Below, piece by piece: positions 28,911 through 44,287 of a stretch of 64,000 nt of DNA. The stretch comes from Oscillospiraceae bacterium (GTDB taxonomy: Bacteria > Bacillota > Clostridia > Oscillospirales > Oscillospiraceae): contig JAETOQ010000005.1 of the NCBI GenBank assembly GCA_021771635.1, forward strand, positions 1 through 64,000, read 5' to 3'. Every line of letters starts with the position of its first letter. Positions within the stretch are counted from its first letter, which is position 1. Both the position numbers and the translations under genes were made by a program. The notes below the pieces were generated by a model that searched no databases, was not told the DNA's origin, and was given only the letters and a program-made list of their open reading frames with translations.

Positions 28911-28935
28911 GTGGGCAATGTCTCTTTAGGACACC
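28901..28935. other. attL: left junction of the integrated element
   Basis: Host gene sequence (GCTCCATGAC) changes to element sequence at the shared GTGGG (28911-28915). The element arm ends with TTAGGACACC (28926-28935), the inverted counterpart of GGTGTCCTAA at the right end. The layout (half host site, short core, half of a symmetric phage-type site) is what a serine integrase leaves. Confidence 0.7.
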
Positions 28936-29076
28936 TCGTCGCCGCAGCCTCCATATCCTTCGCTTCCGCCTGGCGGCGAAAGCTCACTCATTCCGGTGCG
29001 TCTCCTCTCCCCACCGAACCCGCTCCGCTGGGCTTCGGCGGGGGCCCAGTTTGTCGGTTACAGGCAGAAGTACCTG

Positions 29077-30630
29077 TCAAAATTTCCAATGGATTTTGAC
29101 CTCCTGCTGGCCGGTATCCGGGTCCTGTTCCCCGATCTCGATCTTTTGGATCAGCATGACCGCCAGCTCGCGGGGCAATGTGTCCAGCTTCAGAAGCTCC
29201 TGGGTCTTTTCCATTAAGTCCGTTTGCTGCTGGGGCCGTTCCTGTTCCGCCAGTTCTTCATCGATCTGAGACAGCCGCCGCTCCAGACGGCTTTTTTCAG
29301 CCAGGAAATCCTGGTTCAGGTCCACAAACTGGCCCTCACTCAAGACCCCGGAGACCTTATCCAGATACAGATTCTTGAGTGCGGCGCTCCGCTTTTCCAG
29401 CTGGGTGGTCAGAGCCTTCTGCTCCTGCAGCAGCACATCCCGTTTGGTATCCCGGGGCTGTGGAAGCTCCATCTCCTCCAGCGTGTAGTAGCTCTGAACA
29501 TAGTGCCGCAGCCGCTCTAACACCAAGTCAATCAGCCGGTCCAGCCGGACGGAATGGCGGGTACACAGCTTTTTCTCACCACTGTCGGCATACAGCTTGC
29601 ACCGGAGATAGTAGACCTGGTTCGGCCCTTTTTTGCCGTTGGAAGTCTTGCTCATGGTGCTGCCGCAGTCCATGCACTTTACCAGTCCGGCCAGGGGATG
29701 GACCATCCCTGTCCCGTCCTCCCTGGTGCGCAGCGCCATCAACTTCTGTACCGTCTGGAACGTCTTTCGGTCGATAATAGCCTCGTGGGTGCCCTCCACC
29801 CGGAACCACTGCTCCTGCGGCATGGTAATGAGGGTCTTGGACTTGTAGCTCACCTTTTTTGTCCGTCCCTGCACCATGTTGCCGATATACATTTCATTAT
29901 GGAGAATCCGCCATACCGTAGTCTTGTTCCACAGCCCGTAATCATTCTTAACCGGGTGGTTGCAGGTCCATCCCCGCTCCATTTTGTATCTGGTGGGATT
30001 GATGACGCCGCGGCTGTTGAGCATAAAGGCGATGTTCTGCTTGCCGTGGCCCTCCAGCGCCCACTGAAAAATCTGCCGTACCACCTCCGCCGCCTCCGGC
30101 TCTACAATGAGGTGGTTTTTGTTGCGTGGGTCCTTTTGGTAGCCATAGACGGGAAATCCGCCAATGTACTGCCCCTGCCGCCGCTTCATGTCAAAGACCA
30201 TGCGGATGTTCTCGGAAAGGTCCTCTAAGTACCACTCGTTGATGAGGCCATTGATCTGACGTGCCTTCTTGTTGCCCTTGATCTCAGTGTCGGCGTTGTC
30301 GGCCACCGCGATAAACCGGATGCCCCAGATGGGAAACAGGCCGTGGATGTACTTCTCCACCAGCTCCATGTCGCGGGTAAAACGGGACTGGCTTTTGCAG
30401 AGAATGATCTGAAACTTCTTCTCCTTGGCCGCCGCAATCATGCGGTTAAAGTCAGGCCGCAGGCTGTCGGCGCCGGAGTAATCCTCGTCGCAGTAGATAT
30501 GGTAGATGTCCCAGCCGCGCTCCACGGCATAGCTGATCAGCAGAGATTTTTGGTTCTGGATGCTCTCGGATTCAGGCTGCTGTTTATCTTCATCCTCCTT
30601 GCTCAGTCGTGTATAGATCGCACAAAGTAT
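29077..30630 (-). CDS. Large serine recombinase (site-specific integrase)
   Basis: A 517-residue protein if read from an ATA codon that lies eight bases after AGGAGG. The extra N-terminus (LCAIYTRLSKEDEDKQQ) holds the catalytic serine of the YTRxS motif; the first standard start, GTG at 30525, would omit 35 residues including that serine. Then follow the resolvase domain (DEDYSGADSLRPDFNRM, SRFTRDMELVEKYI), the recombinase domain, a zinc ribbon (CMDCGSTMSK ... RCKLY ... CTRHS) and a coiled coil (about 395-460), the hallmarks of large serine integrases. It sits next to attL. An in-frame TAA directly precedes the ribosome binding site, so no longer form is possible. Confidence 0.88.
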   Translation of the reverse strand: MLCAIYTRLSKEDEDKQQPESESIQNQKSLLISYAVERGWDIYHIYCDEDYSGADSLRPDFNRMIAAAKEKKFQIILCKSQSRFTRDMELVEKYIHGLFPIWGIRFIAVADNADTEIKGNKKARQINGLINEWYLEDLSENIRMVFDMKRRQGQYIGGFPVYGYQKDPRNKNHLIVEPEAAEVVRQIFQWALEGHGKQNIAFMLNSRGVINPTRYKMERGWTCNHPVKNDYGLWNKTTVWRILHNEMYIGNMVQGRTKKVSYKSKTLITMPQEQWFRVEGTHEAIIDRKTFQTVQKLMALRTREDGTGMVHPLAGLVKCMDCGSTMSKTSNGKKGPNQVYYLRCKLYADSGEKKLCTRHSVRLDRLIDLVLERLRHYVQSYYTLEEMELPQPRDTKRDVLLQEQKALTTQLEKRSAALKNLYLDKVSGVLSEGQFVDLNQDFLAEKSRLERRLSQIDEELAEQERPQQQTDLMEKTQELLKLDTLPRELAVMLIQKIEIGEQDPDTGQQEVKIHWKF

Positions 30631-30741
30631 GTGTTACACCTCCTAAAAGGCGTAACTGCTCACTTTAATCGTAGCACTTAGAGCAGCTACCCGGCAAGAA
30701 ATTATTTGAAATCCCTACGCCGCTAAAACGCAGCGCAGGGA

Positions 30742-30858
30742 TCATTTGGACAGTTCTTTTGTGAGCCATGCGGTTATGGCTTGTTGGATGGTGGCGCTAA
30801 TTAGGGCCGCGTCGTTGGATCGTCGCTGCTCGGTCAAGATAAATGTTGTATTTTTCAC
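30742..30858 (-). CDS. Small 38-residue ORF upstream of the recombinase
   Basis: Read directly from the sequence: GTG start with GGAGGTG seven bases upstream, product beginning MKNTTFILTEQRRSND and ending AWLTKELSK. It is followed by an imperfect hairpin (ATCCCTGCGCTGC against its complement near 30700-30735). The good binding site and the position just before the recombinase make it a possible accessory protein, for instance an excision factor, but it matches no family that I recognise. Confidence 0.4.
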   Translation of the reverse strand: MKNTTFILTEQRRSNDAALISATIQQAITAWLTKELSK

Positions 30859-30869
30859 GAAAACACCTC

Positions 30870-31315
30870 CAGAAAATTCTATGAATAGGTGTCCGTGGTT
30901 ATGAAAAACAGATATGCAGGACCACAGCCGTTTCTTGAATATAATAATTTATGCGGCAGCAGTCTGATCATCTTAGGCAGCTACTGAACCGTTTTTCTCA
31001 TAGACATTTTGCCGCTCCATCCCAATATGCCTCTGACGCTTTCAAAATTTTTCCCCCAAAAATGCTTGAGGGTAATGGCATCGGCTTTCATATAGGTAGT
31101 GTCGGTAACCGTCAATCTTCCGCCCGCTGGACTCTTTTCACATACTGATGCATCACATCCGAAAATAATCCCCGAAAAACCTTCCCGGAAGATAACCTCC
31201 TCCACTCTGTCGCTTTCCATGCGATGTTGCCTTACTTTTTTCTTTATTTGTTTACATCTATTTCATTTTACAGCTTCATTTTATAAAAATAGTGCCAGAA
31301 TATTGCCGACAACCA
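30870..31315. other. Gene-poor interval between recombinase and LacI genes
   Basis: Nothing here is a convincing gene. A minus-strand frame of 79 codons (30981-31220) contains VTDTTYMKADA, faintly like the catalytic region of IS1182-type transposases, and could be a decayed insertion-sequence fragment, but the similarity is too short to claim. Confidence 0.3.
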
Positions 31316-31317
31316 TA

Positions 31318-31363
31318 TTTACTATTGAAGAAAATATGTTATAATAATGGAAAAATTAGTAAT
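31318..31363 (+). promoter_or_regulatory. lacI-type gene promoter with operator-like ATTAGTAAT
   Basis: TTTACT, a 16-base spacer and TATAAT (31340-31345) are followed by ATTAGTAAT at 31355-31363, just downstream of the expected transcription start. The same 9-base near-palindrome occurs at the two other regulated promoters of the element, suggesting autorepression. Confidence 0.6.
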
Positions 31364-31377
31364 ATGGGGAAATTACC

Positions 31378-32466
31378 ATGAAATCAAAAAATCCAACTAT
31401 GACAGATATTGCTCGTACTGCTGGAGTCTCTCAGTCGACTGTATCCATGATTTTGAGTGGGAAGCAGCTCTCCTCCTTTCCTCCCGCCACAGTGGCTAAA
31501 GTGCAGGAGGCCTGCAAGGCCTTGAACTATGTCCCCAGAAAGCGAAACAGCAGTAAGTCATCCCGCAAATCCAAGGAAATTTTGGTTCTGGCCTCTAAAA
31601 TGACGAACCCCTACTATCCCTCTATGCTGCAAAGTGTGGAGCGCGAAGCCCTACGCAATGGGCTGAGTGTGGTAGCATGCGATACGTATTACATGCCGGA
31701 TCTGGAAAAACAATATCTGAAGATGGCGTCTGAACGGGATTTTTTGGCTGCCATTTTCCTGTATGCTCCGGTAAATTTGAGTGCTTTGAAAAAATACAAT
31801 CCGCTCCTTCCGGTGGTGGCAATCTGTGACTATGGCAAAAACAGCACGCCTACCGATCTGGTAGAGTTGAATAACCTCCATGCAGGGCGGTTGGCTGCGG
31901 AGCATCTCTATGCGCTGGGACACCGCCGCTACACGCTGCTGACCAATACCGTGGACGGCAGTCAATCCCGCGAGGCTCGTCTGGTGGGTATCCAGCAGTA
32001 TCTGGAAAGCGTCCCTGAACCGTGTAAGATTCAATTTCTCAAGCGGAAAGCCGTCTCCGCTGAGGATGCCATGAGCGATAATTATGACTACAATACCGGT
32101 TATCAATTGGCGCAGGACGTGAGTATTTATCAAGAGGGCAGTACTGCCATCATTGCCATGAACGACATGGTTGCTTTGGGTGCCATGGATGCCGTTCTGG
32201 AAAAGGGTTATAGGGTCCCGGAGGATTTTTCTATCATTGGTTTTGATAATCTGTTATATACCGGTTTAGCCCGTATCTCCCTGACCACTGTCGATAACCA
32301 TACGGACCTCTTGGCAAAATCTGCGATGGATGTGCTGCTGTACCGCATCAATATTTCCAACAACAGTCCTCTGATTTCTGAAACATATTTCAAAATCGAA
32401 TGCCAGCCGCGGCTGATCGTTCGCAAGTCCACAGGACCTGCGGCCTCAGCGGCTGATGATTCTTGA
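31378..32466 (+). CDS. LacI-family transcriptional regulator
   Basis: A 362-residue regulator: an N-terminal helix-turn-helix with hinge (TMTDIARTAGVSQSTVSMILSGKQLSSFPPATVAKVQEACKALNYVP) and a periplasmic-binding-protein-like ligand domain (VLASKMTNPYYPSMLQSVEREA, AIIAMNDMVALGAMDAVLEKGYRVPEDFSIIGFDN). It is transcribed toward the TRAP operon and most likely represses it and the dehydrogenase operon through the ATTA[C/G]TAAT sites. The inducer is unknown, presumably the substrate of the TRAP transporter or a product. Confidence 0.93.
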   Translation: MKSKNPTMTDIARTAGVSQSTVSMILSGKQLSSFPPATVAKVQEACKALNYVPRKRNSSKSSRKSKEILVLASKMTNPYYPSMLQSVEREALRNGLSVVACDTYYMPDLEKQYLKMASERDFLAAIFLYAPVNLSALKKYNPLLPVVAICDYGKNSTPTDLVELNNLHAGRLAAEHLYALGHRRYTLLTNTVDGSQSREARLVGIQQYLESVPEPCKIQFLKRKAVSAEDAMSDNYDYNTGYQLAQDVSIYQEGSTAIIAMNDMVALGAMDAVLEKGYRVPEDFSIIGFDNLLYTGLARISLTTVDNHTDLLAKSAMDVLLYRINISNNSPLISETYFKIECQPRLIVRKSTGPAASAADDS

Positions 32467-32478
32467 CAAACAGGCAAA

Positions 32479-32515
32479 GACCTGACAGACCATGAATGGT
32501 TCTGTCAGGTCCTTC
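32479..32515. terminator. Bidirectional terminator between lacI-type gene and dctQ
   Basis: GACCTGACAGA(A)CC pairs with GG-TCTGTCAGGTC with one bulge; flanking sequence is CCTTCCTTTG on the plus strand. It separates two converging units. Confidence 0.75.
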
Positions 32516-32534
32516 CTTTGGTAGAAAAGAAGTA

Positions 32535-33062
32535 TTACATGTTGTCAGGCTGGATGTTTTCCACAAGCGGCTCGTCATCCTCAGGTCTGCTGCGGAGGGC
32601 AACCACAATATCCCTTATAGAAAACACAGTGATCAAGAGGCATCCCACGCCGTAAGACGCAGGGAGCACCCACGCCGGAGTATTACTGGTGCCACTGGTA
32701 GTGCCCCGGGCAATATGCTGCATACAAATACTGCCCACAAAACATGTGGAGACACCGAAGAATACCGCATTGATCACAGCTGAAATAACTCGGAGCCATT
32801 TATAAACAGTCTTATGGCCCCGCCTCAGCAGAGAGTCCTCGATAAATTCCAGCCGCATGATGCCGCCCTCCTGAAAGCAGAGCGCTGCGCCGATAAAATA
32901 ACCCCAGATAAAGACGGTGCGCAGGAGTTCATCCGACCAGGAGATCGAGATTTTCAGGATAAAGCGTGTGACGACACCGGCAGTGGCCACTAAAATGCCG
33001 ATCAATCCGACATACCCCACAAACACGCTGCCGATTTGATTGATCTTCTTGCCAAATTTCAC
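32535..33062 (-). CDS. TRAP transporter small permease subunit (DctQ type)
   Basis: A membrane protein of about 175 residues with four helices. It shows the DctQ pattern: GVVTRFILKISISWSDELLRTVFIWGYFIGAALCFQEGGIMRLEFI. With DctM and DctP it forms a sodium-driven importer of organic acids. The chosen start is GTG (33062), preceded by AGGGTGA; another GTG three codons earlier (33071) has no good binding site. Here DctQ is the last gene of the operon, after DctP, a less usual order. Confidence 0.92.
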   Translation of the reverse strand: MKFGKKINQIGSVFVGYVGLIGILVATAGVVTRFILKISISWSDELLRTVFIWGYFIGAALCFQEGGIMRLEFIEDSLLRRGHKTVYKWLRVISAVINAVFFGVSTCFVGSICMQHIARGTTSGTSNTPAWVLPASYGVGCLLITVFSIRDIVVALRSRPEDDEPLVENIQPDNM

Positions 33063-33120
33063 GATAATCACCCTAAATCACGCAAAATACCAGAGTCATT
33101 TGTTCAAAACTCAAAACACA

Positions 33121-34173
33121 TCAGCGCAGGGATTCCACAAAGGACTGGGTCATATCCAGAACATCACTGGAGCCGACGATTTCATTGAAAATATCATATA
33201 CGGCAGGATCGATCAGAGCCTTAAACGCCTCCGTATCCGGCTCCCATTCGATCTCAACGCCATTCTCTTCCATCTGCTTATAGCAGTCCTCGGTCAGCTC
33301 ATCCGTCAACTCACGCTGCCAATCTCGTGCATCCTCAAAGGCCTGGCGGACGATCTTCTGCTGGTTCTCAGTCAGGGAGGCCCAGGTCTTCTCATTGAAC
33401 ATAACAGTGATTGGTGTATAAGAATGGTTCGTGACAGACAGGTAATCCTGCACTTCCCACATCTTGTAGCTGGCCAGAGTCGTCATGCCGTTTTCGTTGG
33501 CATCGACCGTGCCATTCTGCAGAGCGGTAAAGGTCTCTGTCATATCAACAGCCATCGGAATGGCGCCAAATGCTTCCCAGGTGGCGTTCTGTGTCTTGGA
33601 GGGGACGATGCGGATTTTCAGGCCGGCCATGTCCTTCGGCTCCACAATGGGATTTCTATTGTTCATCAGCTGGCGCATACCAGATTCAAAGTAGGTGAAC
33701 AGCAGGGCGCCGCTTCCCTCAAACAGGCTGGAGATGTACTGGCCAGGTTCTCCATCCAGCGTGGCACGGGCCTCTTCGGCATTGTTGAACAGGAACGGCA
33801 GTTCAAAGACCTGAACAGCGGGAACATACCCGGAGATATAGGACGGACCGCAGGAGCAAACATCGATCGTACCCTGGAAAACGCCGTCTACGCAGGCGCT
33901 CAGAGAACCCATCTCACTGCCGTAATATACGTCGGCAGTGATGTTGCCGTTGGAGTATTCCTCGACCAGCTCGGCAAATTTGTCGTAGCCCTTGCTGATC
34001 GCGTTGTCTTTCGTATTGCCGGCAGACACAACGGTCAGCTTGACAGGCGTATCCGCTGTCTCTTCAGTGCCAGGCTTTTCCTGGCTTTCGGAAGAATCTT
34101 CTTTTTTTCCACCGCAGGCGGTGAGGCTAAAAACCATAGCAAGGACCAGCAACAGAGACATCAGCTTTTTCAT
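33121..34173 (-). CDS. TRAP transporter substrate-binding lipoprotein (DctP type)
   Basis: A 350-residue lipoprotein (signal MKKLMSLLLVLAMVFSLTAC-G). DctP features include SGYVPAVQVFELPFLFNNAEEA, DMAGLKIRIVPSKTQNATWEAFGAIP (the arginine in LKIRIV contacts the carboxylate of ligands) and TALQNGTVDANENGMTTL. It binds the substrate, probably a small organic or sugar acid, outside the cell. AGGAGG precedes the start. Confidence 0.93.
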   Translation of the reverse strand: MKKLMSLLLVLAMVFSLTACGGKKEDSSESQEKPGTEETADTPVKLTVVSAGNTKDNAISKGYDKFAELVEEYSNGNITADVYYGSEMGSLSACVDGVFQGTIDVCSCGPSYISGYVPAVQVFELPFLFNNAEEARATLDGEPGQYISSLFEGSGALLFTYFESGMRQLMNNRNPIVEPKDMAGLKIRIVPSKTQNATWEAFGAIPMAVDMTETFTALQNGTVDANENGMTTLASYKMWEVQDYLSVTNHSYTPITVMFNEKTWASLTENQQKIVRQAFEDARDWQRELTDELTEDCYKQMEENGVEIEWEPDTEAFKALIDPAVYDIFNEIVGSSDVLDMTQSFVESLR

Positions 34174-34235
34174 TTTTACTCCTCCTAGTAATTTGTTTTA
34201 TAACAATATGCACTGCATAGGGTTACCACAGGTAC

Positions 34236-35513
34236 TTATCTCATAAAGCTGGGCAGCCACAGGGAAATCTGAGGCACAAAGGTCACAATAATAAGGCCAA
34301 TGGTGGTGGCGGCAATAAACGGCAGTGTTGCCGGGATAACTCTGTGTATTGGACGCCCTCCGATCTGCGCAGCCATATACATATTCATGCCCAGCGGCGG
34401 AGTGATCATACCGATGGAAGTGGCGCAGACCATGACAGCCCCCAGATGCACAAGAGAAACGCCATACTGCTCCGCCATAGGTGCCAAAATAGGTGCCAGT
34501 ACCATGACGGCGGGAGACGCATCTACAAAGCAGCCGGTGATCAGCATCAAAATAATCAGAAAGATCAGGAACACGGCCCGGCTTGCGGTCAGGTCCATCA
34601 TGAAGTCAGTCGCGATCGTTGCAACATGTTCACGTGCCAGCACAAAGGAGAATGCACAGGAGCTAGCCACGATCAGCATTACATTGCCGGTACTCTTCAT
34701 GGCCCCGCCAAGGGTCTCGATCAAGGACTTGAAGTTCAGTTCTCGATAGACAAACAGGCCGACAAACGCCGCATAGAAACAAGCTACGGCAGCGGCCTCT
34801 GTGGCGGTGAATATGCCGGAATAAATGCCGCCCAGGATGATCAGCGGGGTCAGGATCGCCCAAACGGCATCCTTAAAGCTGTTCCAAACCTCCCGGATAT
34901 CAAAGTGTCCCGTCCCTTTCCAGCCATTTCTCCTGCATATCCAGATGGCCAGAAGGCCTGTGCAAAGCACCATCATAAAGCCGGGACCGGCGCCTGCGAT
35001 CAGCATGGTTCCCACAGATTGATTGGCATTTACTGCATATAGCACCATTACAATGCTCGGCGGGATCAGCGGACCGAAAATACCGGAAGTAGCCGTCAAA
35101 GCGCAGGCAAAATCCTGATCATAGCCTCTGTTGTACATTTCGGGGATCATAATACCGCCGATAGCGGCAGTGGTCGCGATCGCGGAACCTGACATGGCCG
35201 CGAAAAAAGCACAGGCCACAACCACCACTATGGCCAGGCCGCCGGTGAAGTGGCCCACCAGAGACAGGCAAAACCGCACCAGCCGTTTGGAGATGCCGCC
35301 CTGCTGCATCAGAGCACCTGCCATGATAAAAAACGGCGCAGCCAGCAGCACATAGTTGTTCACTCCAGAAATAGTCTGCTGCATGACCACCAGGGGAGAG
35401 ACATCCGTAAAAAGCAGGATATATAAGAACGAAGACGCTCCCATGGACAAGGCTACCGGCAGCCCAAGCGCCATCAGTCCCAAAAAGGAGGCAAACAGTA
35501 TCAACATGTTCAT
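34236..35513 (-). CDS. TRAP transporter large permease subunit (DctM type)
   Basis: A 425-residue, 11-12-helix permease: LPVALSMGASSFLYILLF, FFIMAGALMQQGGISKRLVRF, ATSGIFGPLIPPSIVMVLYAV and SIGMITPPLGMNMYMAAQI are typical. It catalyses the Na+-coupled import step. It overlaps the isomerase gene by four bases (ATGA). Confidence 0.94.
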   Translation of the reverse strand: MNMLILFASFLGLMALGLPVALSMGASSFLYILLFTDVSPLVVMQQTISGVNNYVLLAAPFFIMAGALMQQGGISKRLVRFCLSLVGHFTGGLAIVVVVACAFFAAMSGSAIATTAAIGGIMIPEMYNRGYDQDFACALTATSGIFGPLIPPSIVMVLYAVNANQSVGTMLIAGAGPGFMMVLCTGLLAIWICRRNGWKGTGHFDIREVWNSFKDAVWAILTPLIILGGIYSGIFTATEAAAVACFYAAFVGLFVYRELNFKSLIETLGGAMKSTGNVMLIVASSCAFSFVLAREHVATIATDFMMDLTASRAVFLIFLIILMLITGCFVDASPAVMVLAPILAPMAEQYGVSLVHLGAVMVCATSIGMITPPLGMNMYMAAQIGGRPIHRVIPATLPFIAATTIGLIIVTFVPQISLWLPSFMR

Positions 35514-36361
35514 TTTTTCGGCCTCCTATCCCAAACCCTTGCTCTGCAATCCCTTGTCACACGCTCGATCCTGCGGATATCCTCATACAGGCTCTTTTGT
35601 GTGAAGCGATGGTCAGGTGCATACTCGATGCCAATATCTGCATCCGGCGAATAACAGGCAATAGCCCGCAGGACATCATCGATCTGCTCCGGTGAATAAA
35701 TACCCTCAGGATCATAGAGCGGATAATGGCTGTCGTGGATCCCATCGTTGTTATTCAAATGATACCCACGGATCCGGGGCCCCAGTGTTTCGATCAGTTT
35801 CACGATATCCCAGCCATTCAGCATGGCATGTCCTGTGTCGATCAGACAGCCTATCTCCTCCGGAAGCTCCCGGAATAACTGGATGAACTGCTCGTAATCA
35901 AAAAGAAGGTTTTTCTTTTTGGGATATCCCACATTCTCCACTGTCATCTCAATGCCCTGGGCATGCAGGCGTTTGTGCCAGTCCAGCAGCACCTCGCGAA
36001 CACGCATTCTTTTTGCTTCCTTTTCCTCCTCCGGGAAAGCACCTTCATTGGTGTGAAATACCATCGAAGTAGCGTTAAAAGCCTTATAATAACCACAGGC
36101 ACGAGTAAATGCCTCTTCCATTTTTCTCTCTTCTTCACTGCCGGGCACCGTGCAGATCTCTACAAAAGGAGAGTGAATGGTAGCCGGTATCCCCCGCATG
36201 TTTTCGATCTGGGCGTCCAGCTTTTCAAAGAAATCAGGGGTCGTCCAGCTGGTAGCATACTCTACACCAAGCTGAAAGTCCTTAAATTCTTCCACCTGTT
36301 TTTTCAAAGACTCGTAATCAGAAAACGCAACTCCATAGGTCGATAAATAAATTCTTTTCAT
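35510..36361 (-). CDS. Sugar phosphate isomerase/epimerase-like TIM-barrel protein
   Basis: A 283-residue xylose-isomerase-like TIM barrel (AP_endonuc_2 fold). Metal-site candidates are E in EMTVENVGYP, H in MVFHTNEGAF, D and H in CLIDTGHAMLNGWD, H in GYHLNNNDGIHDSHYPL, and E in IGIEYAPDHR. The start ATG follows GGGAGG. Such enzymes isomerise or epimerise sugars and keto acids in catabolic operons; the substrate here is unknown. Its coupling to dctM suggests it acts early on the imported compound. Confidence 0.85.
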   Translation of the reverse strand: MKRIYLSTYGVAFSDYESLKKQVEEFKDFQLGVEYATSWTTPDFFEKLDAQIENMRGIPATIHSPFVEICTVPGSEEERKMEEAFTRACGYYKAFNATSMVFHTNEGAFPEEEKEAKRMRVREVLLDWHKRLHAQGIEMTVENVGYPKKKNLLFDYEQFIQLFRELPEEIGCLIDTGHAMLNGWDIVKLIETLGPRIRGYHLNNNDGIHDSHYPLYDPEGIYSPEQIDDVLRAIACYSPDADIGIEYAPDHRFTQKSLYEDIRRIERVTRDCRARVWDRRPKK

Positions 36362-36380
36362 TTGCGCCTCCCTCAAAAGC

Positions 36381-37517
36381 TTATGCCAAGATGTGATATG
36401 CACTCATCGGTGTAAACAGCTCCAGCTGCACATACTCAGGAAATCCATTCATGTTGTGGAACACAAATCTTTCGATCACGCGCTTTTCTTCGGACGAGCA
36501 ATCCTTCCGCATCACCAGATCATTTTTCCCCTCGTAGCGCATCTCATGAGCTCCATAGCCGAACAACTGCTCACAATAGCCCTTTCCCTGCAGTTCCGGG
36601 ATCAAATACATCCGTTCCAAGTACCCGCTTTTCTTTGGGAGGTTTTTATCAAATCCCAAACGGACAAAGCCGGTCAGCTTCCCCTTCAGATAGGAAAACG
36701 CGATGGAGTTGGGTCTTTGCCTCAAAAGCTCCTCAGCTTCCTGCAAGTAGGCCTTTGCATCAAACACGGCGTCTGTGCCCTCTCTCTCGTGGAAATCAGA
36801 CTCCGCCAGACGCAGCAGTTCGTCCTTTTGCTCCGGCAAGCGGCAGGGATAGACCGCCATATTGATGTCGCTGCCGGCCATACCTGGCCAGGCCCGGCGC
36901 AGATGCGGAGGCAAATGGGATTCGTCGTTCATGTATTCTACCGTAAACCGCCCGTCGGCATCCACATTCAGCAAATTGACCGAGGTATTGTCACCATGTC
37001 CGAATTCCTTGACCTGCGTCATAGGTTTTCCCAAAATCGTGCACAGAGCCGCTTTAATGCTGCAGGAGTGGGAGACCAGCAACGCCGTTCCATCGCCAAC
37101 CTCCTCTGCGATGCGCCGCATTCCGAAAATCAGCCGGTCAGACACCTGCTGGAAAGTGGACGCGCCCGGTGTGGTCATATTCCAGGGGGCGTTGCTCCAG
37201 TTGTCATGGTCCGCAGGATACTCTTTTTCAATATTCCCCCACGCGCTGTCCTCCCAGACGCCAGTCGTGACTTCCCGAAGCAAAATACGCACATTGACCG
37301 GCAGGCCTCTTTCCTCCGCAATCGGTTGTACAGTCATGATGGATCGATAGGAATCACTGGAATAGATGGCATCGATGTGAACTCCTTCAAAACGGCGGCG
37401 CAGCATCTCACACTGCTCGTAGCCTTTTGTTGTCACTAGGGCATCCACATGTGCCTGCGTTCGCCGGCAGGCATTACCTTCCGATTCGCAATGCCGGATC
37501 AAATAAATCTTCGCCAT
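36381..37517 (-). CDS. Histidine phosphatase - GNAT acetyltransferase fusion
   Basis: A 378-residue protein of two domains. Residues 1-210 are a phosphoglycerate-mutase-like histidine phosphatase (KIYLIRHCESEGNA; second histidine in ALLVSHSCSIKAAL); the usual RHG catalytic motif reads RHC. Residues ~220-378 resemble a GNAT domain (SIAFSYLKGKLTGFVRLGF, LERMYLIPELQGKGYCEQLFGYGA, the acetyl-CoA loop being QGKGYC). The two activities in one chain suggest sequential dephosphorylation and acylation, or repair, of a pathway intermediate. It is the first gene of the TRAP operon. Confidence 0.8.
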   Translation of the reverse strand: MAKIYLIRHCESEGNACRRTQAHVDALVTTKGYEQCEMLRRRFEGVHIDAIYSSDSYRSIMTVQPIAEERGLPVNVRILLREVTTGVWEDSAWGNIEKEYPADHDNWSNAPWNMTTPGASTFQQVSDRLIFGMRRIAEEVGDGTALLVSHSCSIKAALCTILGKPMTQVKEFGHGDNTSVNLLNVDADGRFTVEYMNDESHLPPHLRRAWPGMAGSDINMAVYPCRLPEQKDELLRLAESDFHEREGTDAVFDAKAYLQEAEELLRQRPNSIAFSYLKGKLTGFVRLGFDKNLPKKSGYLERMYLIPELQGKGYCEQLFGYGAHEMRYEGKNDLVMRKDCSSEEKRVIERFVFHNMNGFPEYVQLELFTPMSAYHILA

Positions 37518-37530
37518 CCCGCTCCCTCCT

Positions 37531-37692
37531 ATTAAATTACTGATAATTTAATATTTTATCATTAATTTATATTCGTATAGTAGCACAAATTGTTTTATTA
37601 ATCAACTATTTTTATTTATTTTTCAGTTTTTTGTTCAATATGCACATGTGACGTCTGCCGTTCTTGTGCAACAAAATATTACTAATATTTTG
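37531..37692 (-). promoter_or_regulatory. Promoter and two palindromic operators of the TRAP operon
   Basis: On the minus strand TTGATT (37600-37605) and TACTAT (37577-37582) are spaced 17 bases. Downstream lies a perfect palindrome with arms ATTAAATTA and TAATTTAAT around CTGA (37531-37552). Upstream lies another with arms CAAAATATTA and TAATATTTTG around one C (37672-37692), whose core is ATTACTAAT. Two sites flanking a promoter suit repression by LacI-type DNA looping. The rest of 37518-37829 is AT-rich and holds no gene. Confidence 0.65.
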
Positions 37693-37829
37693 TTAATTGA
37701 TTTGCAGCCAGCAGATCATCCAAAGCGCTTCTGTCTCTCCGCGCCACAGCGTTCCGGATGAGAAATCACCCCTTTCGGCACCCGCAGGGTTTGATCCCTT
37801 CTCTTCCCATGGTTCAAACAGTTGTGGCA

Positions 37830-38573
37830 TCACATATAGAGGCCGCCGTTCACATTCATGAAATCGCCTGTGATATAGTCAGACAAATCGCTGGCATAAA
37901 ACAGCACAGCATTCGCAACATCTTCCGCAGTACCATAACGCCCCATCGGAATATAGGTCTTTGGATCCACTTTGGACCAGGACAGCGTCCTGCCCATAGG
38001 TGTCAGAATATTTCCAGGGCAAATCGCATTGGAGGTGATATGGTACGGCGCCCCGCTAAGCGCAAAACACTTGCTCAGGTTCAGAATACCCGCCTTAGCG
38101 CATGCATAGGAGGCATCAGAACTTCTGCCTCCCCGAAGGGCCGCCAGAGAGGACATATGTACCAGCTTGCCGTATCTCTGCTCTTTCATGATCGCAAATA
38201 CCGCCTGGGTCACGAAAAACATGGATTTCAGGTCTATGTCCATCATCCGGTCCCAACTGTCCAAGGTGATCGCGTCAATAGGCGTGGAACCGGTAATGCC
38301 GGCTACATTCACCAGGATATCAATACGGCCAAACAATTCTCGCGCCTTGGCCACTTTGGCAGGAATGGCATCAAACTCCGCCACATTGAATTCCAATGCT
38401 CGGGCATCACCGCCCTCGGCGTTGATGCTGTCCGCCACCCTTTGGGCAGCTTCCAAATCCATATCTGCCAGGATCACCTTGGCTCCGTATTCAGCCAGTC
38501 TTCGGGCGCTGGCCTCGCCAATTCCCCGGCCTCCGCCGGTAATCATGGCAACCCGATCAGTCAACAAAGACAT
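37830..38573 (-). CDS. Short-chain dehydrogenase/reductase (SDR)
   Basis: A 247-residue classical SDR: NAD(P)-binding TGGGRGIGEASARRLAEYGAKVILADMD (the aspartate after the second strand favours NAD), NVAG, catalytic serine in VHMSSLAALRGG, YxxxK in SYACAKAG, and a C-terminal ITGDFMNVNGG. It is the last gene of the dehydrogenase operon and may oxidise a hydroxy acid or polyol to the keto form that feeds the 2-oxoacid dehydrogenase complex. Confidence 0.9.
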   Translation of the reverse strand: MSLLTDRVAMITGGGRGIGEASARRLAEYGAKVILADMDLEAAQRVADSINAEGGDARALEFNVAEFDAIPAKVAKARELFGRIDILVNVAGITGSTPIDAITLDSWDRMMDIDLKSMFFVTQAVFAIMKEQRYGKLVHMSSLAALRGGRSSDASYACAKAGILNLSKCFALSGAPYHITSNAICPGNILTPMGRTLSWSKVDPKTYIPMGRYGTAEDVANAVLFYASDLSDYITGDFMNVNGGLYM

Positions 38574-38669
38574 TTGTACGATCCCTCTTTCTCTCAGTCA
38601 CCAGCTCAGCGGTCTCCTGCTGTGCCGATCCTCTGTCATTGCGGAGGCTGTCTCCGCGCTCTGCGGGGA

Positions 38670-40040
38670 CTACCCTTTATGTACGGACCTGCCGAAGGCG
38701 TCCAGAGCCGCCTCACGCACCATCTCACACAAAGAGGGATGGGCTACGACCATCCGTTCCCACTGGTCCACGGTAGCCGCATCTGCCACAGCGGATGCGG
38801 CCATGGCAATCATTTCGGAGGCATTTTCTCCCACGATCGTCACTCCCAGGGTCTTGCGGGATGTCTTGTCCATAACGGCAAAGACCGCGCCTGACGCTCC
38901 TTCTGCCAGTGCCATGCCGTTGGCCTCATACTGAAAGGACCCCAGCACTGGCTCATAACCGGCTGCCTTGGCGCGTTCGCTGGTCAGGCCCACGGTGGCA
39001 AAGCAAGGGATCGTATATGTACATACCGGCACAGGTCCAACACCGCATGGCTTTTCCTCTCCCAAAATGTCCGCCAGGGCAGCTTCACCTTCGGCATAGG
39101 CCACATGGGCCAGCTGATAGCCGCCAACCACATCTCCGATGGCATAGACGCCCGGCAGATTCGTGCGTTGGCAGTGATCCACCCGAATGCATTTTTTTGC
39201 ATCCAGTTCCAGGCCAAGCATCTCCGCGTCGATACCGCTGAGATTTGTCTTTCGTCCGGCGGCCATGAGGACCTGCTCACAGCATGTATGGACTTCTTTT
39301 CCGTCTACTTCATATACGGCATTCAGGCCAGCGGCAGTCTTTTCGACGCGCAGCATCTTTGCCCCGGTCATCAGACGGATACCCTGCTTTTTCATAGCAT
39401 TCACCAGAATTTTTACAGCCTCTTTCTGCTCTCCCGGCATCAGTTCGGGCATCATTTCCACCACGGTGATCTCCGTTCCATAGGCTGCAAAGGCGCAGGC
39501 CAACTCCAGACCGATAACACCTCCACCTATCACGACCATACTGCGGGGAAGCGTATCCAGCTCCAGTGCGCCGGTCGAGTCGATGCAATACTCACAGCCA
39601 GGGATCGGTATCATCATGGGCACGGAGCCGGTGGCGATAACGACCTGTGTCCCCTGATATTCCTCTTCAGCGCAGGAAACAACACGGTCTTTCTTTAAGA
39701 CCGCCTTGCCCCGCACGATCTCCACCCCGTGATTTTTCAGGAGAAAGCCCACGCCGCTCACCAATTTTCCGCAGACCTCCGCCTTGCCTCTCTGAATCTT
39801 TTTGAAACTGAAGCTGCCGGCATCACGGAAGATATCTTTCTTCACCAAGGCGCGTACCTTCTCCATGGCATTGGCCTTGTCCACCAGGTACTTGGTCGGA
39901 ATGCACCCCACATTCAGGCAGGTACCGCCCAGGCGCTCCTTTTCAAACAGGGCCACTTTTTTGCCATGCTTCGCGGCGTTGACGGCCAGGGAGTACCCGC
40001 CAGGGCCGCCTCCGATCACCAAGATATCAAACTGCAGCAT
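38670..40040 (-). CDS. lpdA: Dihydrolipoyl dehydrogenase (E3)
   Basis: A 456-residue flavoprotein that reoxidises dihydrolipoamide with NAD. It has the FAD loop (ILVIGGGPGGYSLAVNAAKHGKK), redox disulphide (GGTCLNVGCIPTK), NAD loop (MVVIGGGVIGLELACAFAAYG), GVYAIGDVVGGYQLAHVAYAEG and a C-terminal His-Glu relay (VVAHPSLCEMV). It starts 15 bases after the E2 gene, indicating one operon. Confidence 0.94.
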   Translation of the reverse strand: MLQFDILVIGGGPGGYSLAVNAAKHGKKVALFEKERLGGTCLNVGCIPTKYLVDKANAMEKVRALVKKDIFRDAGSFSFKKIQRGKAEVCGKLVSGVGFLLKNHGVEIVRGKAVLKKDRVVSCAEEEYQGTQVVIATGSVPMMIPIPGCEYCIDSTGALELDTLPRSMVVIGGGVIGLELACAFAAYGTEITVVEMMPELMPGEQKEAVKILVNAMKKQGIRLMTGAKMLRVEKTAAGLNAVYEVDGKEVHTCCEQVLMAAGRKTNLSGIDAEMLGLELDAKKCIRVDHCQRTNLPGVYAIGDVVGGYQLAHVAYAEGEAALADILGEEKPCGVGPVPVCTYTIPCFATVGLTSERAKAAGYEPVLGSFQYEANGMALAEGASGAVFAVMDKTSRKTLGVTIVGENASEMIAMAASAVADAATVDQWERMVVAHPSLCEMVREAALDAFGRSVHKG

Positions 40041-40055
40041 ATCTATTCACCTCTA

Positions 40056-41315
40056 TCAGTACATCATCAAAGCCGGGTTTTCCATCAGCATCTTCAGCTC
40101 CCGCAGAAATTGAGCGCCATAAGCTCCGTCAATGATACGGTGATCGAAAGAACCTGTTACTGTCATCTTCGGCACGGGCTGGAATGCGGCTCCATCCCAG
40201 ACCGGCTGGGTCTGTATGCTGCCGACAGCCAAAATGCAACTTTCAGGCGGGTTCACGATGGCGACAAACTGGTCCACATCATACATGCCCAGATTGGATA
40301 TCGTGATGCTTCCACAGCCCATATCGTTCGGTCCCAGTCTGCCGCTTCTGGCTTTCTCGATCTGGGCTTTATACTCGGCCGCGATCTGCTCCAAGCCTTT
40401 TGTGTCGATCTCCCGGACTACCGGCACAACCAGAGCGCCGTCCAACGCCACAGCTATGCCAATATTCGTGTGGTGGTAAATGCGGACCTCGTTATCCTCA
40501 TATCGCGCCTTCACCAGCGAAAATTTCCGTGAGGCCACCGCAATGGCCTTTGCTAAGATATCGTTATAGGATAGCTTGATCCCTTTCTTCTCCTGATAAG
40601 ATTCCCGCAGCGCTATACAGGCGGTCATATCCATGGACACCATACACTTCCAAGCCGGGATATCCCGCAGGCTCTCCTGCATCCGTCTGCCAATGATACT
40701 GCGCATATGGGTCATAGACATGACCTCATACTCTGATGCAGGCTTCGGATCAACTGCTGCCGGCGTATTCGCCGCTGCCGCCAAAACATCCTGCCGTTTG
40801 ATAAATCTGCTGTTGGCTGGGATAAGAGTCGTGAGGTCCACATGCTTTTCCTTTGCCAGCATCTTTGCGTTTGGCATGGCGGGATAAGCGGTCGCATGTG
40901 CGCAGACATCCCTCGGAGAGGCTGCAGGCGCTGCCGTCCGGACGGGCAGGTCTCCCTTTATAATGGGCATGTACTCCTCATCCCTGGATACAGCAGGCTC
41001 CCCGGGAGACGCAGGTGCCGCAGAGGAGGCCGAAGCGACCGGAGCAGATGCGCAGTTGCTCCGACTGCCAGCAGCCTCATTCTTTTTTCCAACCACTGCC
41101 AAAACAGTGCCGGCAGTCACCTCGTCTCCCTCTTTCACCAGAACATCCAGCACCTGCCCGGCTGCAAAGCTCTCCACAGGCAAGACCGCCTTGTCTGTTT
41201 CCGCTTCCACCAAGATATCGCCGCGCTTTACGGTGTCGCCTACTTTGACATTGACTGCCACGATCGTCGCTTCATCTGTGGTCTGGCCCGCACTGGGCAT
41301 TTTGATTTCCTGCAT
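40056..41315 (-). CDS. 2-oxoacid dehydrogenase complex acyltransferase (E2)
   Basis: A 419-residue E2: an N-terminal lipoyl domain (lipoylated Lys in EAETDKAVLPVES, residue ~43), an Ala/Ser/Pro linker, a peripheral-subunit-binding domain (AYPAMPNAKMLAKEKHVDLTTLIP) and an acyltransferase core with the catalytic FDHRIIDGAYGAQFL. It forms the scaffold binding E1 and E3. No lipoate ligase is on the element, so the host must lipoylate it. Confidence 0.93.
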   Translation of the reverse strand: MQEIKMPSAGQTTDEATIVAVNVKVGDTVKRGDILVEAETDKAVLPVESFAAGQVLDVLVKEGDEVTAGTVLAVVGKKNEAAGSRSNCASAPVASASSAAPASPGEPAVSRDEEYMPIIKGDLPVRTAAPAASPRDVCAHATAYPAMPNAKMLAKEKHVDLTTLIPANSRFIKRQDVLAAAANTPAAVDPKPASEYEVMSMTHMRSIIGRRMQESLRDIPAWKCMVSMDMTACIALRESYQEKKGIKLSYNDILAKAIAVASRKFSLVKARYEDNEVRIYHHTNIGIAVALDGALVVPVVREIDTKGLEQIAAEYKAQIEKARSGRLGPNDMGCGSITISNLGMYDVDQFVAIVNPPESCILAVGSIQTQPVWDGAAFQPVPKMTVTGSFDHRIIDGAYGAQFLRELKMLMENPALMMY

Positions 41316-41330
41316 GATAGTCTCCTTCTT

Positions 41331-42404
41331 TTACAGCCTTGCCAGTTTTCTGGCTTCCTCGGCGATCCGCTGGATGGAGGGAATCACAAAATCTTCCAGG
41401 ATGGGCGAAAATGGAATGGGGCAGTCCGGTGCAGCCAAGCGAACCACAGGCGCATCCAGCAGATGGATGGCGTTCTCCGCCACATAGGAAGCCAGTTGTG
41501 CACCCCAGCCGCCGTTATAGTGATCTTCATGGACGATCATCAGCTTGCCTGTCTTTTCAATGGATGTCAAAACCGTCTCATAGTCAAAGGGAACCAGAGA
41601 TCGGGGGTCAATGATCTCGCAGCTGATGCCCTCTTTCTCCAGCTCTTCAGCAGCCTGCATGGCCCTGTACCACATCAGCAGATTTGCAACGATGGTCACA
41701 TCCTTGCCCTCCCGGCGGATGGCTGCCTTCCCAAAGGGCACCGTATAGTCGCCATCGGGAACTTCTCCCATTGCGCTGAGCTGACCGGCTTCCTTCCGCT
41801 TGCCGCCATACAGCAGCTTGTGTTCAAATACCAACACAGGATTGTTATCGCGGATGGCCTGTTTCATCATGCCTTTGGCGTCATAAGCTGTGGAGGGGCA
41901 GATCACCTTCAGGCCGGGAACATGAACGAAATAGCTCTCCAGACTCTGCGCGTGTTGGGCCCCCCGGTTACTGGCGCCGCAAGGGGCACGCATGACCATG
42001 GGCACATGGAATCCGCCATTGGACATATAACACATCTTTGCCGCCTGGTTTACCAGCTGGTCCATCATGCAGAACAGGAAATCACCGTACTGCAGATCCG
42101 CAACAGGCCGCATGCCAGCCATGGCAGAGCCGACACAAACGCCGCACAGCAGAATCTCGGAGATAGGGGTATTGATCACGCGGTTATTGGAAAAATCCTT
42201 CACGCCCTTCAGTTCAAAGCCCTTCTCCTTGGCGATCCGTACATTGGCTCCAAATTCCTCTCCCAGACCCTTTGTCACTGTAAACGCGCCGCCCATGCCG
42301 CCGGGGATATCCTCGTCCTCACCGATGCAGAAAACGGTCGGGTCTCTCCGCATCTCCTCTGTAATCGCGCTTTTCAGCGCATTAGCAATCGACATCATAG
42401 CCAT
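41331..42404 (-). CDS. 2-oxoacid dehydrogenase E1 component, beta subunit
   Basis: A 357-residue transketolase-type beta subunit: VFCIGEDEDIPGGMGGAFTVTKGL (thiamine-diphosphate-activating glutamate in the GED region), TPISEILLCGVCVGSAMAGMRPVADLQYGDFLFCMMDQLVNQAAKM, and a C-terminal domain with DPRSLVPFDYETVLTSIEKTGKLMIVHED. GGGAGGG precedes the chosen ATG; an ATG six codons earlier overlaps that binding site. It starts five bases after E1 alpha. Confidence 0.93.
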   Translation of the reverse strand: MAMMSIANALKSAITEEMRRDPTVFCIGEDEDIPGGMGGAFTVTKGLGEEFGANVRIAKEKGFELKGVKDFSNNRVINTPISEILLCGVCVGSAMAGMRPVADLQYGDFLFCMMDQLVNQAAKMCYMSNGGFHVPMVMRAPCGASNRGAQHAQSLESYFVHVPGLKVICPSTAYDAKGMMKQAIRDNNPVLVFEHKLLYGGKRKEAGQLSAMGEVPDGDYTVPFGKAAIRREGKDVTIVANLLMWYRAMQAAEELEKEGISCEIIDPRSLVPFDYETVLTSIEKTGKLMIVHEDHYNGGWGAQLASYVAENAIHLLDAPVVRLAAPDCPIPFSPILEDFVIPSIQRIAEEARKLARL

Positions 42405-42409
42405 GGTGC

Positions 42410-43387
42410 TCAGCCCTCCCAAAATACATTTTCCAGTGCAGAATCATAAGTGGGCAGCGGTGCGCTCTTTGCATATTCCACCGCGTCATCGATCTCCTGC
42501 TCGATTTCAGCCTCTTCTTTCTGCAGCTCCTCCTCAGAGATGATCCCCTTTTCCAGAATGACCTTGCGGAAGTTCTTGACCGGGTCCCTCTGATCGATCC
42601 AATAATCCGCCTCATCCTTGGGGCGATAGCCACAGGCATCATTCCGGGAGTGACCGCCATGGCGATATGTCTTGACTTCGATAATGGTAGGTCCCTCTCC
42701 GGCACGTGCCCGAGCGATTGCGCGGGCAGCGGCCTCGTTCACCGCCAACACGTCATTGCCGTCCACGACCTCACTGGGAATCCCATAAATCTCCGCCCGG
42801 CCGGCAGCCACATCTTCCTGACAGCAGGTCAAACTGATGGATGTATTTGCCGAATAGAGGTTGTTCTCACAGACATAAATGACCGGCAGCTTCCACAGGC
42901 CCGCAGCATTCATGGTTTCATGATAAGAGCCCTCATTGCTGGCGCCATCGCCGAAGAAGCAGACCACCACATTGTCCTTTTTCTGCATTTTGAAAGCCAA
43001 TGCCGCGCCGGCCGCAATAGGCAAATTACCGCCGACGATCGCATTTGCAGTCATTGCTCCCACAGAGGCATCACCGGTGTGCATGGCGCCTCCTTTTCCC
43101 CCGCAGCAGCCTTCAGCCTTTCCGAACATCTCACACATCATTGCCCGGACCGTGATGCCCTTCGCAATATCATGTCCAGCAGGGCGATGAGTAGACGCCA
43201 TCCAGTCATCCTTTCTCAAATCGTACAGCATACCGACGGCACTGGCCTCCTCGCCAGTGCTCTGATGAATCGTTCCGGGCATAATGCCTTCCAAAAACAG
43301 ATAGTAGATGCTCTCCTCGTATTTGCGAATCTTGTACATGGTCTTATACATCCCAAGCGCTTTTTCATTCGAAGGAAAAGTTACCAT
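42410..43387 (-). CDS. 2-oxoacid dehydrogenase E1 component, alpha subunit (pyruvate/acetoin type)
   Basis: A 325-residue subunit with the thiamine diphosphate motif GDGASNEGSYHETMNAAGLWKLPVIYVCENN and phosphorylation-loop-like YRHGGHSRNDACGYR. Also typical are MPGTIHQSTGEEASAVGM and GGKGGAMHTGD. Pyruvate and acetoin dehydrogenase E1 alphas are close relatives, so the substrate is left open. It is the first gene of the E1-E2-E3-SDR operon. AGGAGG precedes the ATG. Confidence 0.92.
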   Translation of the reverse strand: MVTFPSNEKALGMYKTMYKIRKYEESIYYLFLEGIMPGTIHQSTGEEASAVGMLYDLRKDDWMASTHRPAGHDIAKGITVRAMMCEMFGKAEGCCGGKGGAMHTGDASVGAMTANAIVGGNLPIAAGAALAFKMQKKDNVVVCFFGDGASNEGSYHETMNAAGLWKLPVIYVCENNLYSANTSISLTCCQEDVAAGRAEIYGIPSEVVDGNDVLAVNEAAARAIARARAGEGPTIIEVKTYRHGGHSRNDACGYRPKDEADYWIDQRDPVKNFRKVILEKGIISEEELQKEEAEIEQEIDDAVEYAKSAPLPTYDSALENVFWEG

Positions 43388-43430
43388 ATGAATGCTACCT
43401 CCTAGTTTCCGTTGTCTTTATCCTCTTGTT

Positions 43431-43455
43431 AAAAATATTAGTAATTAATATTTTT
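43431..43455. promoter_or_regulatory. Operator-like palindrome before the dehydrogenase operon
   Basis: Arms AAAAATATTA and TAATATTTTT around GTAAT. It contains ATTAGTAAT (43437-43445), the core shared with 31355 and 37678. It lies downstream of the promoter at 43477-43505, in a repressing position. Confidence 0.6.
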
Positions 43456-43476
43456 ATTTTTACTGATTTAACAAAG

Positions 43477-43505
43477 ATGTTATCACGAAATCTCGGCAAT
43501 TTCAA
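43477..43505 (-). promoter_or_regulatory. Promoter of the E1-E2-E3-SDR operon
   Basis: Minus-strand TTGAAA, a 17-base spacer and TAACAT. The remainder of 43506-43838 is AT-rich, carries no supported gene, and forms the right arm of the element. Confidence 0.55.
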
Positions 43506-43838
43506 TTCGCATTACTATTCAAAATTTTCGAATTAATTTAGGTAATTATAACAAAACTCCTTGGTTTTTCTTTTCTTGTTCACATCTTTTTATTATTAAT
43601 ATTTCAGAACACGGGCAATATCACTCATTGTGAGCAGTGATCAAGAGTGTCTTTTCTCAGCCGGTTTTCTCCTTATCTGTGATACGTTTAAGCACAGAGT
43701 TGGCTTTCGTTCCGGAAAATGCGAAGCACGGCAGTCAAACTATCAGCGGCGAATATAATCGTGACTTCAAAGGCGTCCAAGACAGCTCTGTCAAAAAATG
43801 TGCTCTACTTCAATACTTCAAATGGCTTGTCCCAAAAA

Positions 43839-43873
43839 GGTGTCCTAATGGTGCCGTGCCGTGGGGCGAGGTG
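43839..43873. other. attR: right junction of the integrated element
   Basis: The element arm begins GGTGTCCTAA (43839-43848), reaches the GTGGG core at 43861-43865 and passes into host gene sequence (GCGAGGTGCC). The 22 bases 43839-43860 match the inverted complement of 28914-28935 at 16 of 22 positions, so the joined ends form a symmetric site around GTG. Confidence 0.7.
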
Positions 43874-44139
43874 CCGTCCACCACGGCGCACCGGATCTCC
43901 GGCAGGACCACGCCGTCCAGAGAGTCCGGATCGCCGGAGCACCACAGGTATTCCACCGCGGTGCCCGCCTGCTCCATGGAGCGGCCCACCTCCCGCATAA
44001 AGGTGTTCTTCCCCACACCGGGGCCGCCCTTCAGCACCATCAGGTCATATGTATCCTCAATGTCCACCATCTCCGGGAACAGATTCTGAAAGCCCTCGCC
44101 GCTGTTCGCGCCGACGAAAAAGTGCGTCACCTGTGCCAT
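43861..44139 (-). pseudogene. N-terminal part of a split PRK06851-like P-loop ATPase
   Basis: It begins MAQVTHFFVGANSGEGFQNLF after GGAGGAG, and contains the Walker A region (LKGGPGVGKNTFMREVG), CSGDPDSLDGVVLPEI and VVDGTSPH, the order of PRK06851 proteins. Host codons end at 43861; the frame continues 15-16 codons into the element to a TGA at 43810, so a 94-residue stump with a foreign tail would be made. The Walker A residue after Lys is Asn where Ser/Thr is normal. Its function in the family is not established. Confidence 0.8.
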
Positions 44140-44287
44140 ATCGTTCTCCTCCAAATCAAGTTTCATGCCAGACTATGCAAAAACATCTTGGCCTGACAGT
44201 GTTTTCAGCCTGTCTGCCGGAAAATTCGGAGGCCGGGGAGGAAATCTTTCCCAAATGAAAAATTATGGTGAAATTTGTGGAGCTTTC

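Follow-up and report, generated by a model that had tools for sequence, protein, structure and literature searches.

Why should a cluster of catabolic genes sit inside a gene of a sporulation family, and how might its bearer tolerate the interruption? The locus that raises this question is an island at 28911-43860 (crossover to crossover) in a 64,000-nucleotide stretch of DNA from an Oscillospiraceae bacterium (assembly GCA_021771635.1, contig JAETOQ010000005.1, positions 1 to 64,000), which was analysed whole and is called here the window. A preliminary description, made from this DNA alone, took the island for an undescribed type of mobile metabolic island moved by a serine integrase. Because the interrupted gene is of a sporulation family, the likely mechanism shifts from plain mobility to developmentally controlled excision, and we consider that the island probably belongs to the skin/gin type of sporulation-gene-intervening elements, with a catabolic operon as its cargo.

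The limits of the island were drawn from its junction sequences, from the joining of its flanks and from the att sites of relatives. Copies of GTGGG at 28911-28915 and 43861-43865 bound it, which gives a length of 14,950 bp and bears out the 14.95-kb serine-integrase island with GTGGG at both ends that had been described. At the left junction (28900-28935) the host sequence GGCTCCATGAC and the shared GTGGG are followed by an island arm ending TTAGGACACC, and at the right junction (43839-43876) an island arm starting GGTGTCCTAA leads through GTGGG to the host sequence GCGAGGTGCC. The two arm sequences, the outer ten bases of the attP arms, are each unique in the window and mark the two ends of the island. 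The attP site predicted to be symmetric with 22-bp arms could be rebuilt, its arms agreeing at 16 of 22 positions (binomial P 3.5e-6), a score reached at 5 of 63,940 window positions; the rough symmetry attributed to the joined-flank site fared less well, since attB is symmetric at 10-13 of 26 positions at best. The 2-bp core had been given as GT, but TG (28912-28913 and 43862-43863) is more likely, because the dyad centres of relatives fall on CA of the host strand (TG on the plus strand) and because of the crossover in G013. CA is the best centre in genomes G114, G034, G042 and G080, tied in G113 and second best in G048, whose two ends come from different islands, while in G000, G013 and G024 the dyad lies half a base off CA, with one arm shorter by a base. 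The base after CA is not the same at both junctions of G013, so that its crossover lies within CCCA. The GC content is 0.52 in the island versus 0.60 in each flank.

Joining the flanks reopens the interrupted gene, as predicted, in a single open frame of 364 codons in which the gene rejoins exactly. Its 3' part lies at 28122-28910 and its 5' part at 43861-44139, both on the minus strand, with a likely ATG start at 44139. The joined protein matches PRK06851 (NF005320) with E=2.8e-47 and 161 bits, below the curated cut-off of 556. According to excerpts of the cited papers, PRK06851 comprises dual-wield NTPases (dwNTPases), among them CD3298 of C. difficile, and knockouts suggest that it has a role in the dipicolinic acid of spores (PMC10949312); delta-cd3298 spores are heat-sensitive, with calcium dipicolinic acid largely undetectable (PMC10449524), and the sigma-E regulon includes CD3298, which has a sigma-E promoter (PMC3789822). 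The interrupted gene is probably needed to build hardy spores. The island shares with the skin/gin class an insertion within the coding sequence of a sporulation gene (a role assigned via CD3298), a short direct repeat, in-frame rejoining, and a site-specific serine recombinase of its own.

The source genome contains SpoIVA, sigma-E and SpoVAC, each exceeding its cut-off, and SpoIVA is above cut-off in 71 of 80 relatives, the source genome counted. Separately, a sigma-E-family sigma factor match at G000:C140:1239-1967 falls in two pieces, about 140 bp apart, with a TGA inside. Upstream of the host gene, a conserved promoter-like element (44170-44197, minus strand) consists of GTCA (44194-44197), N16 and CATAGTCT (44170-44177). 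Upstream sequence of the host gene was usable for 51 genus rows, but not for two others; all 51 have a CATAnnYT element within 70 nt of the ATG, and 44 have GTCR 15-17 nt ahead of CATA, versus a mean of 0.5 in mononucleotide shuffles; the rows are related and therefore not independent.

The empty site predicted for related genomes exists. In the genus of the compared relatives, probably Dysosmobacter, 79 of 86 genomes (the source genome included) show the host gene, and its state, read from the hit table, is uninterrupted across codon 102 in 61 of these and disrupted in 18 (G000, G008, G013, G017, G022, G024, G034, G037, G042, G048, G080, G093, G095, G096, G109, G112, G113 and G114). The integrase is found at E<=1e-145 in 14 of the 86 genomes, every one of them disrupted. 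Partial integrases (77% and 93% identity) adjoin the 3' half in G024 and G096, G017 has the end of a 46% identical integrase, and G008, with no integrase match, has two contigs that both stop at the att site. Serine integrases of more distant kinds are common, with a match at E<=0.001 in 68 of 80 relatives. The same 15 kb was found nowhere else: E1-alpha of the cargo has matches at E<=1e-100 solely in the source genome and G429 among 400 family genomes.

The integrase itself (29077-30630, minus strand) is a large serine integrase with Resolvase, Recombinase and zinc-ribbon domains. We compared 90 integrases with more than 440 matched residues: 11 come from the genus rows and 79 from a GTDB scan that yielded 351 relatives, of which 80 loci had been kept. 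A match to the host-gene profile lies within 6 kb of 30 of the 90, and within 300 bp of 27. These 30 site-sharing integrases, 100 to 46% identical to that of the window, are spread across Clostridia; among their bearers are Flavonifractor sp. An10, Pseudoflavonifractor, Marasmitruncus, Anaerotruncus, Herbivorax and a Christensenellaceae assembly. Strain names in the records of L126 (Flavonifractor sp. An10), L134 (Pseudoflavonifractor sp. P3106), L135 (Marasmitruncus massiliensis P3646) and L138 (Anaerotruncus massiliensis AT3) point to isolates. The host-gene profile matches end at positions 93-98 or start at positions 83-92, the same split place within the limits of the method. At L128, L130, L140 and L157 it is the 5' half, not the 3' half, that adjoins the integrase, so that the element has the opposite orientation there. 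In a tree of the integrases, made by a quick method with SH-aLRT support only, all 30 dwNTPase-site rows fall inside one clade of 40 rows, and the dwNTPase-site label changes 5 times versus 25 in shuffles.

Ahead of the integrase lies an unannotated, conserved frame of 38 amino acids (30742-30858, minus strand), with a GTG start and its own ribosome-binding site; a 12-bp hairpin (30712-30741, minus strand) separates the two genes. With a profile iterated five times, the last round still adding one member, the small gene turned up no more than 400 nt ahead of the integrase in 24 of the 30 dwNTPase-site rows, in 8 of the 10 others of the 40-row clade and in 0 of the 50 rows of the other clade. 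It is preceded by a sigma-E-type promoter (30876-30903, minus strand) with CATA at -35 (30900-30903), N16 and the -10 element CATAGAAT (30876-30883). CATAnnnT occurs within 45 nt upstream of 24 of the 32 homologues; 500 mononucleotide shuffles gave 1.3 on average and 6 at most. The control counts were 0 of 32 for the stretch directly before the integrase, 19 of 393 for the stretches before other open reading frames of the same loci and 2.4% for random 45-mers. At -20 to -17 from CATAnnnT the commonest reading is CATA (0.67-0.75 per column); excerpts of PMC3789822 give ATA at the corresponding -35 place of C. difficile sigma-E promoters. The small protein is a candidate recombination directionality factor, a role suggested by its position and promoter.

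Both halves of the split gene appear to be still under purifying selection, provided that the splits are old. Among pairs with dS (synonymous divergence) of 0.1-1.2, split-split pairs have a median omega (ratio of nonsynonymous to synonymous divergence) of 0.169 for the 3' part (88 pairs) and 0.073 for the 5' part (39 pairs), versus 0.207 (428 pairs) and 0.126 (329 pairs) among intact pairs. No stops were reported among 16 3' parts and 12 5' parts. Between G034 and G113, which have sigma-factor cargo in common, dS is 0.82 for the 3' part and 1.0 for the integrase, values compatible with long co-inheritance.

A second target gene marks the sister clade. Of the 60 rows without the dwNTPase gene, 45 have on the locus a piece of a manganese-catalase gene, which we take to be of the CotJC type, mostly less than 200 bp from the integrase; one fragment matches Pfam Mn_catalase with E=1.1e-38, and ten loci hold both halves, 3.1-11.4 kb apart. 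The other, 50-row clade contains 44 of these 45 rows, the last, L169, being in the 40-row clade on a long branch, and no catalase fragment was found in any of the 30 dwNTPase loci. Upstream of the integrase, catalase-site loci have a different small frame, in 39 of 45 by single-linkage clustering and in 27 of 45 by a stricter motif, and CATAnnnT precedes it in 22 of the 26 testable cases among these 27, versus 2.4 in shuffles (maximum 6 of 300) and 2 of 42 control regions. The catalase-site elements (L145-L203) are candidates for a second family of sporulation-gene-intervening elements. Fifteen rows have neither gene; in three of them, L143, L176 and L192, from Faecalibacterium and Gemmiger, a third gene seems to be split, the start of which resembles a carboxypeptidase regulatory domain (CarboxypepD_reg, a weak match that stays under the cut-off). 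At L149, L165 and L199 the integrase is directly followed by another serine recombinase gene.

From this anatomy, excision and its timing may be pictured as follows. The serine recombinase would integrate the circle into the dwNTPase gene, always at one codon; scarce in vegetative cells and in the forespore, it would be unable to excise the element alone. Once active in the mother cell, sigma-E would transcribe the 38-aa gene, and its product, acting as directionality factor, would allow attL x attR recombination to remove the island and rebuild the dwNTPase gene where and when it is needed. Excision would be confined to the mother cell, which dies, while the forespore chromosome would retain the island, so that host and cargo would both survive. 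Cargo could differ from one relative to another.

Sporulation-gene-intervening elements are already established, and the variant described here differs from them in target gene and cargo. As far as the excerpts of the cited papers go, there is a close likeness to skin, a serine recombinase element within the mother-cell gene sigK of C. difficile, in which the recombinase CD1231 is expressed from a sigma-A promoter and CD1234, a factor of 72 amino acids required for excision but not for integration, from sigma-E and SpoIIID, and whose excision restores the gene (PMC5025042). We propose the same layout for the island, with a sigma-A-type promoter for the recombinase and a small factor behind a sigma-E promoter; unlike skin, its target is the dwNTPase gene, its small protein has 38 amino acids, its cargo is catabolic instead of prophage-like and its excision is deduced. 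The gin element in gerE of Bacillus cereus ATCC10987 is likewise a non-prophage island in a sporulation gene and is removed by the serine recombinase GirC plus the factor GirX, but it measures 28.6 kb, has three recombinases, mostly uncharacterised genes and another target, and the excerpts mention no catabolic operon (PMC5595907). Also inserted in sporulation genes are vfbin, in the dipicolinate synthase gene of B. weihenstephanensis and thus in a dipicolinic-acid gene too, and yin, in yabG of C. botulinum, for which a 53-aa factor behind a mother-cell sigma promoter has been proposed; both are prophage-like, with other targets and, as far as the excerpts show, cargo that is not metabolic (PMC10747680). 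Sporulation genes go unmentioned in the passages available of a large survey of recombinase targets (PMC10083194). In the open-licence literature, to the extent that its passages were available, we found no element in a dwNTPase gene, in a CotJC-type gene or with a catabolic operon. XisF, of the cyanobacterial fdxN element, is a serine recombinase for developmentally regulated excision; it belongs to another development and another target gene, and its model (NCBIfam NF041201) scores 107 bits with the window integrase, below the cut-off of 375.

Integrase, att sites and cargo alone would look the same in an ordinary serine-integrase island that inactivates a gene dispensable in the gut, with sporulation genes as dispensable targets and no developmental excision. 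Cargo turnover, non-mobile metabolic genes included, would suit this explanation, and so would the apparent AUA start of the integrase, which suggests low activity. We nevertheless regard it as rather unlikely, since it leaves aside the conserved small gene with a sigma-E-type promoter ahead of the integrase, the stop-free halves with low omega, and the two sister integrase clades with two separate mother-cell target genes. Still less probable, and by a long way, is a helper-moved integrative mobilizable element, or one resembling the staphylococcal cassette chromosome (SCC) and arginine catabolic mobile element (ACME), that would excise for transfer and occupy a sporulation gene incidentally. 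SCC and ACME of staphylococci are serine-recombinase islands at one chromosomal site that form tandem arrays, with catabolic cargo in ACME; judged from the literature passages available, serine-recombinase islands with catabolic cargo are therefore known, and the label of an undescribed type had to be dropped. The serine recombinase, the non-phage catabolic cargo and the tandem islands at one site in G048 would all fit such an element, but the site here is a sporulation gene, the CcrA, CcrB and CcrC models give 57.6, 109.6 and 97.8 bits where 700, 900 and 900 are required, and Pfam and NCBIfam scans of the island proteins brought up neither a relaxase nor transfer genes (no search was made for an origin of transfer). 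That the island is a prophage remnant that has lost its virion genes, like classical skin, seems scarcely credible: most intervening elements are described as prophage-like in the excerpts available, and the best solved relative of the integrase after TnpX is that of phage SP-beta, yet Pfam and NCBIfam detect no virion, packaging or lysis gene in the island, megablast finds no match for it in a phage or plasmid collection, and 13 relatives in viral contigs are at most 44% identical, with no dwNTPase or catalase fragment at the 6 of these 13 loci that were checked.

Several points weigh against a skin/gin-type element nonetheless. The evidence consists of sequence, mostly from metagenome assemblies, with one genome per species, and the orthology of the window gene with CD3298 is based on family assignment. 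At its -35 place the promoter-like element of the host gene reads GTCA instead of ATA. In 6 of the 30 site-sharing rows (L129, L130, L135, L138, L157 and L194) the small gene was undetected, the L129 contig beginning inside the integrase and so providing no upstream sequence; 8 of the 32 small genes have no CATAnnnT, and searches of PDB (E<=10), NCBIfam and Pfam matched the small protein to no structure, family or known directionality factor. The AUA start might mean a poorly expressed integrase. In G112, a 60% complete and perhaps mixed genome, an intact copy of the gene stands beside the split one. Low omega is informative solely where splits are old, and G000-G013, with a dS of 1.0 in the integrase versus 0.42 in the gene, does not fit long co-inheritance; as the integrase is more diverged than the gene, these insertions may be separate and recent.

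If the island is an intervening element as we propose, this would explain how accessory catabolic genes can lie inside a spore gene without ending sporulation, and what was called a metabolic island can be tested as an instance of programmed genome rearrangement in bacteria common in the gut. It newly names the dwNTPase and CotJC-type catalase genes as targets, provides two candidate families of directionality factors small enough for gene callers to miss, and offers dozens of natural pairs of integrase and att sites; it also cautions that such split genes cannot simply be scored as lost in genome surveys. More tentatively, non-viral cargo in gut Clostridia may quite generally use mother-cell genes as its landing platform; a large family of serine integrases would occupy them (dwNTPase, CotJC-type catalase and perhaps more), each integrase bringing a small directionality factor switched by sigma-E. 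Catabolic cargo would thereby persist in both vegetative and spore DNA at next to no cost, and circles from the lysed mother cell may spread it. Sporulation would then be coupled to metabolic gene transfer.

The start of the integrase is unusual. In the window no ATG, GTG or TTG precedes the catalytic motif in frame, and the apparent start is an AUA (30628-30630) after AGGAGG. In G000, G114, G037 and G095 the residues ahead of the catalytic motif come straight after a stop codon, so that no ATG, GTG or TTG is usable; AUA or AUU stands in the start place, following AGGAGG or a sequence close to it. Elsewhere this codon is AUC or AUU, with AUG in G080 and GTG in L131 and L132, and in several integrases the frame extends further upstream, which leaves room for a usual start. 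Integrases of this group thus seem to initiate at non-AUG codons (AUA, AUU, AUC) after a strong ribosome-binding site. Gene callers place integrase starts downstream of the catalytic serine motif. A sigma-A-like integrase promoter is visible by eye in some relatives, and GTGTAACA, in the ribosome-binding stretch upstream of integrases, resembles the SpoIIID site TGTAACAAT quoted in the available part of PMC5025042.

The cargo of the window was identified by Pfam and NCBIfam domain scans. A LacI-family regulator (31378-32466, plus strand) is followed on the minus strand by the TRAP transporter genes DctQ, DctP and DctM (32535-35513), a xylose-isomerase-like TIM barrel protein with a histidine phosphatase-GNAT fusion (35510-37517), a short-chain dehydrogenase (37830-38573) and E3, E2, E1-beta and E1-alpha of a 2-oxoacid- or acetoin-type dehydrogenase complex (38670-43387). 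The claim of catabolic, non-phage, non-conjugative cargo therefore holds for the window, but in relatives the cargo at this site is not always metabolic. G429, from another genus of the same family, has the regulator, the four dehydrogenase-complex genes and the short-chain dehydrogenase together (LacI-E1a-E1b-E2-E3-SDR; E1a 77% identical), without the TRAP, TIM barrel and phosphatase genes and, on the stretch read, not at the dwNTPase site. E2 relatives (80 genomes, E<=1e-60) occur in the source genome and in two others at 39-40% identity.

The cargo of other islands is named here for a subset, not a random sample. It changes from island to island in this subset, with genes for transport, sugars, iron and amino acids and others that are not metabolic. 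At L135 it includes LacI, ABC sugar transport, an FGGY kinase, transketolase halves and a fucose-isomerase-like protein, the far end being beyond the locus; FeoB and an iron repressor are found at L138, a PALP enzyme with an ACT domain and a RidA-like protein at L141, flavodoxin at L142, and a peptidase and a DsbD-thioredoxin protein in G080. Non-metabolic cargo comprises a sigma factor with DUF4367 (G034 type), an S-layer-type protein (G114), a tyrosine recombinase (G013), a TPR protein (L127), a helicase (G022) and flagellin (L128). Open reading frames of L126 and part of L127 were called in wrong frames and, the L127 TPR protein excepted, were not used; FecCD transport genes by L130 were dropped as cargo for their location outside the island. 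On G048:C19 (L031, L032) one dwNTPase gene holds two islands in tandem, the second with DctP, DctQ, DctM, an FGGY kinase, an iron-containing alcohol dehydrogenase (Fe-ADH), SurE and a 71-residue integrase remnant.

Some assemblies deserve a remark. Contigs C23 and C103 of G008 (L081, L082) stop exactly at the att site within the dwNTPase gene, as if the assembly had met two forms. On G109:C25 (L099, L101) the stretch upstream of the integrase holds genes that, judged from their sequence, resemble polA and folC, and the 5' half of the gene is on a different contig, for which rearrangement or misassembly is possible. Finally, the source assembly (2.8 Mb) has 13 matches to Recombinase (PF07508), three of them clustered on contig C167 and three on C3.

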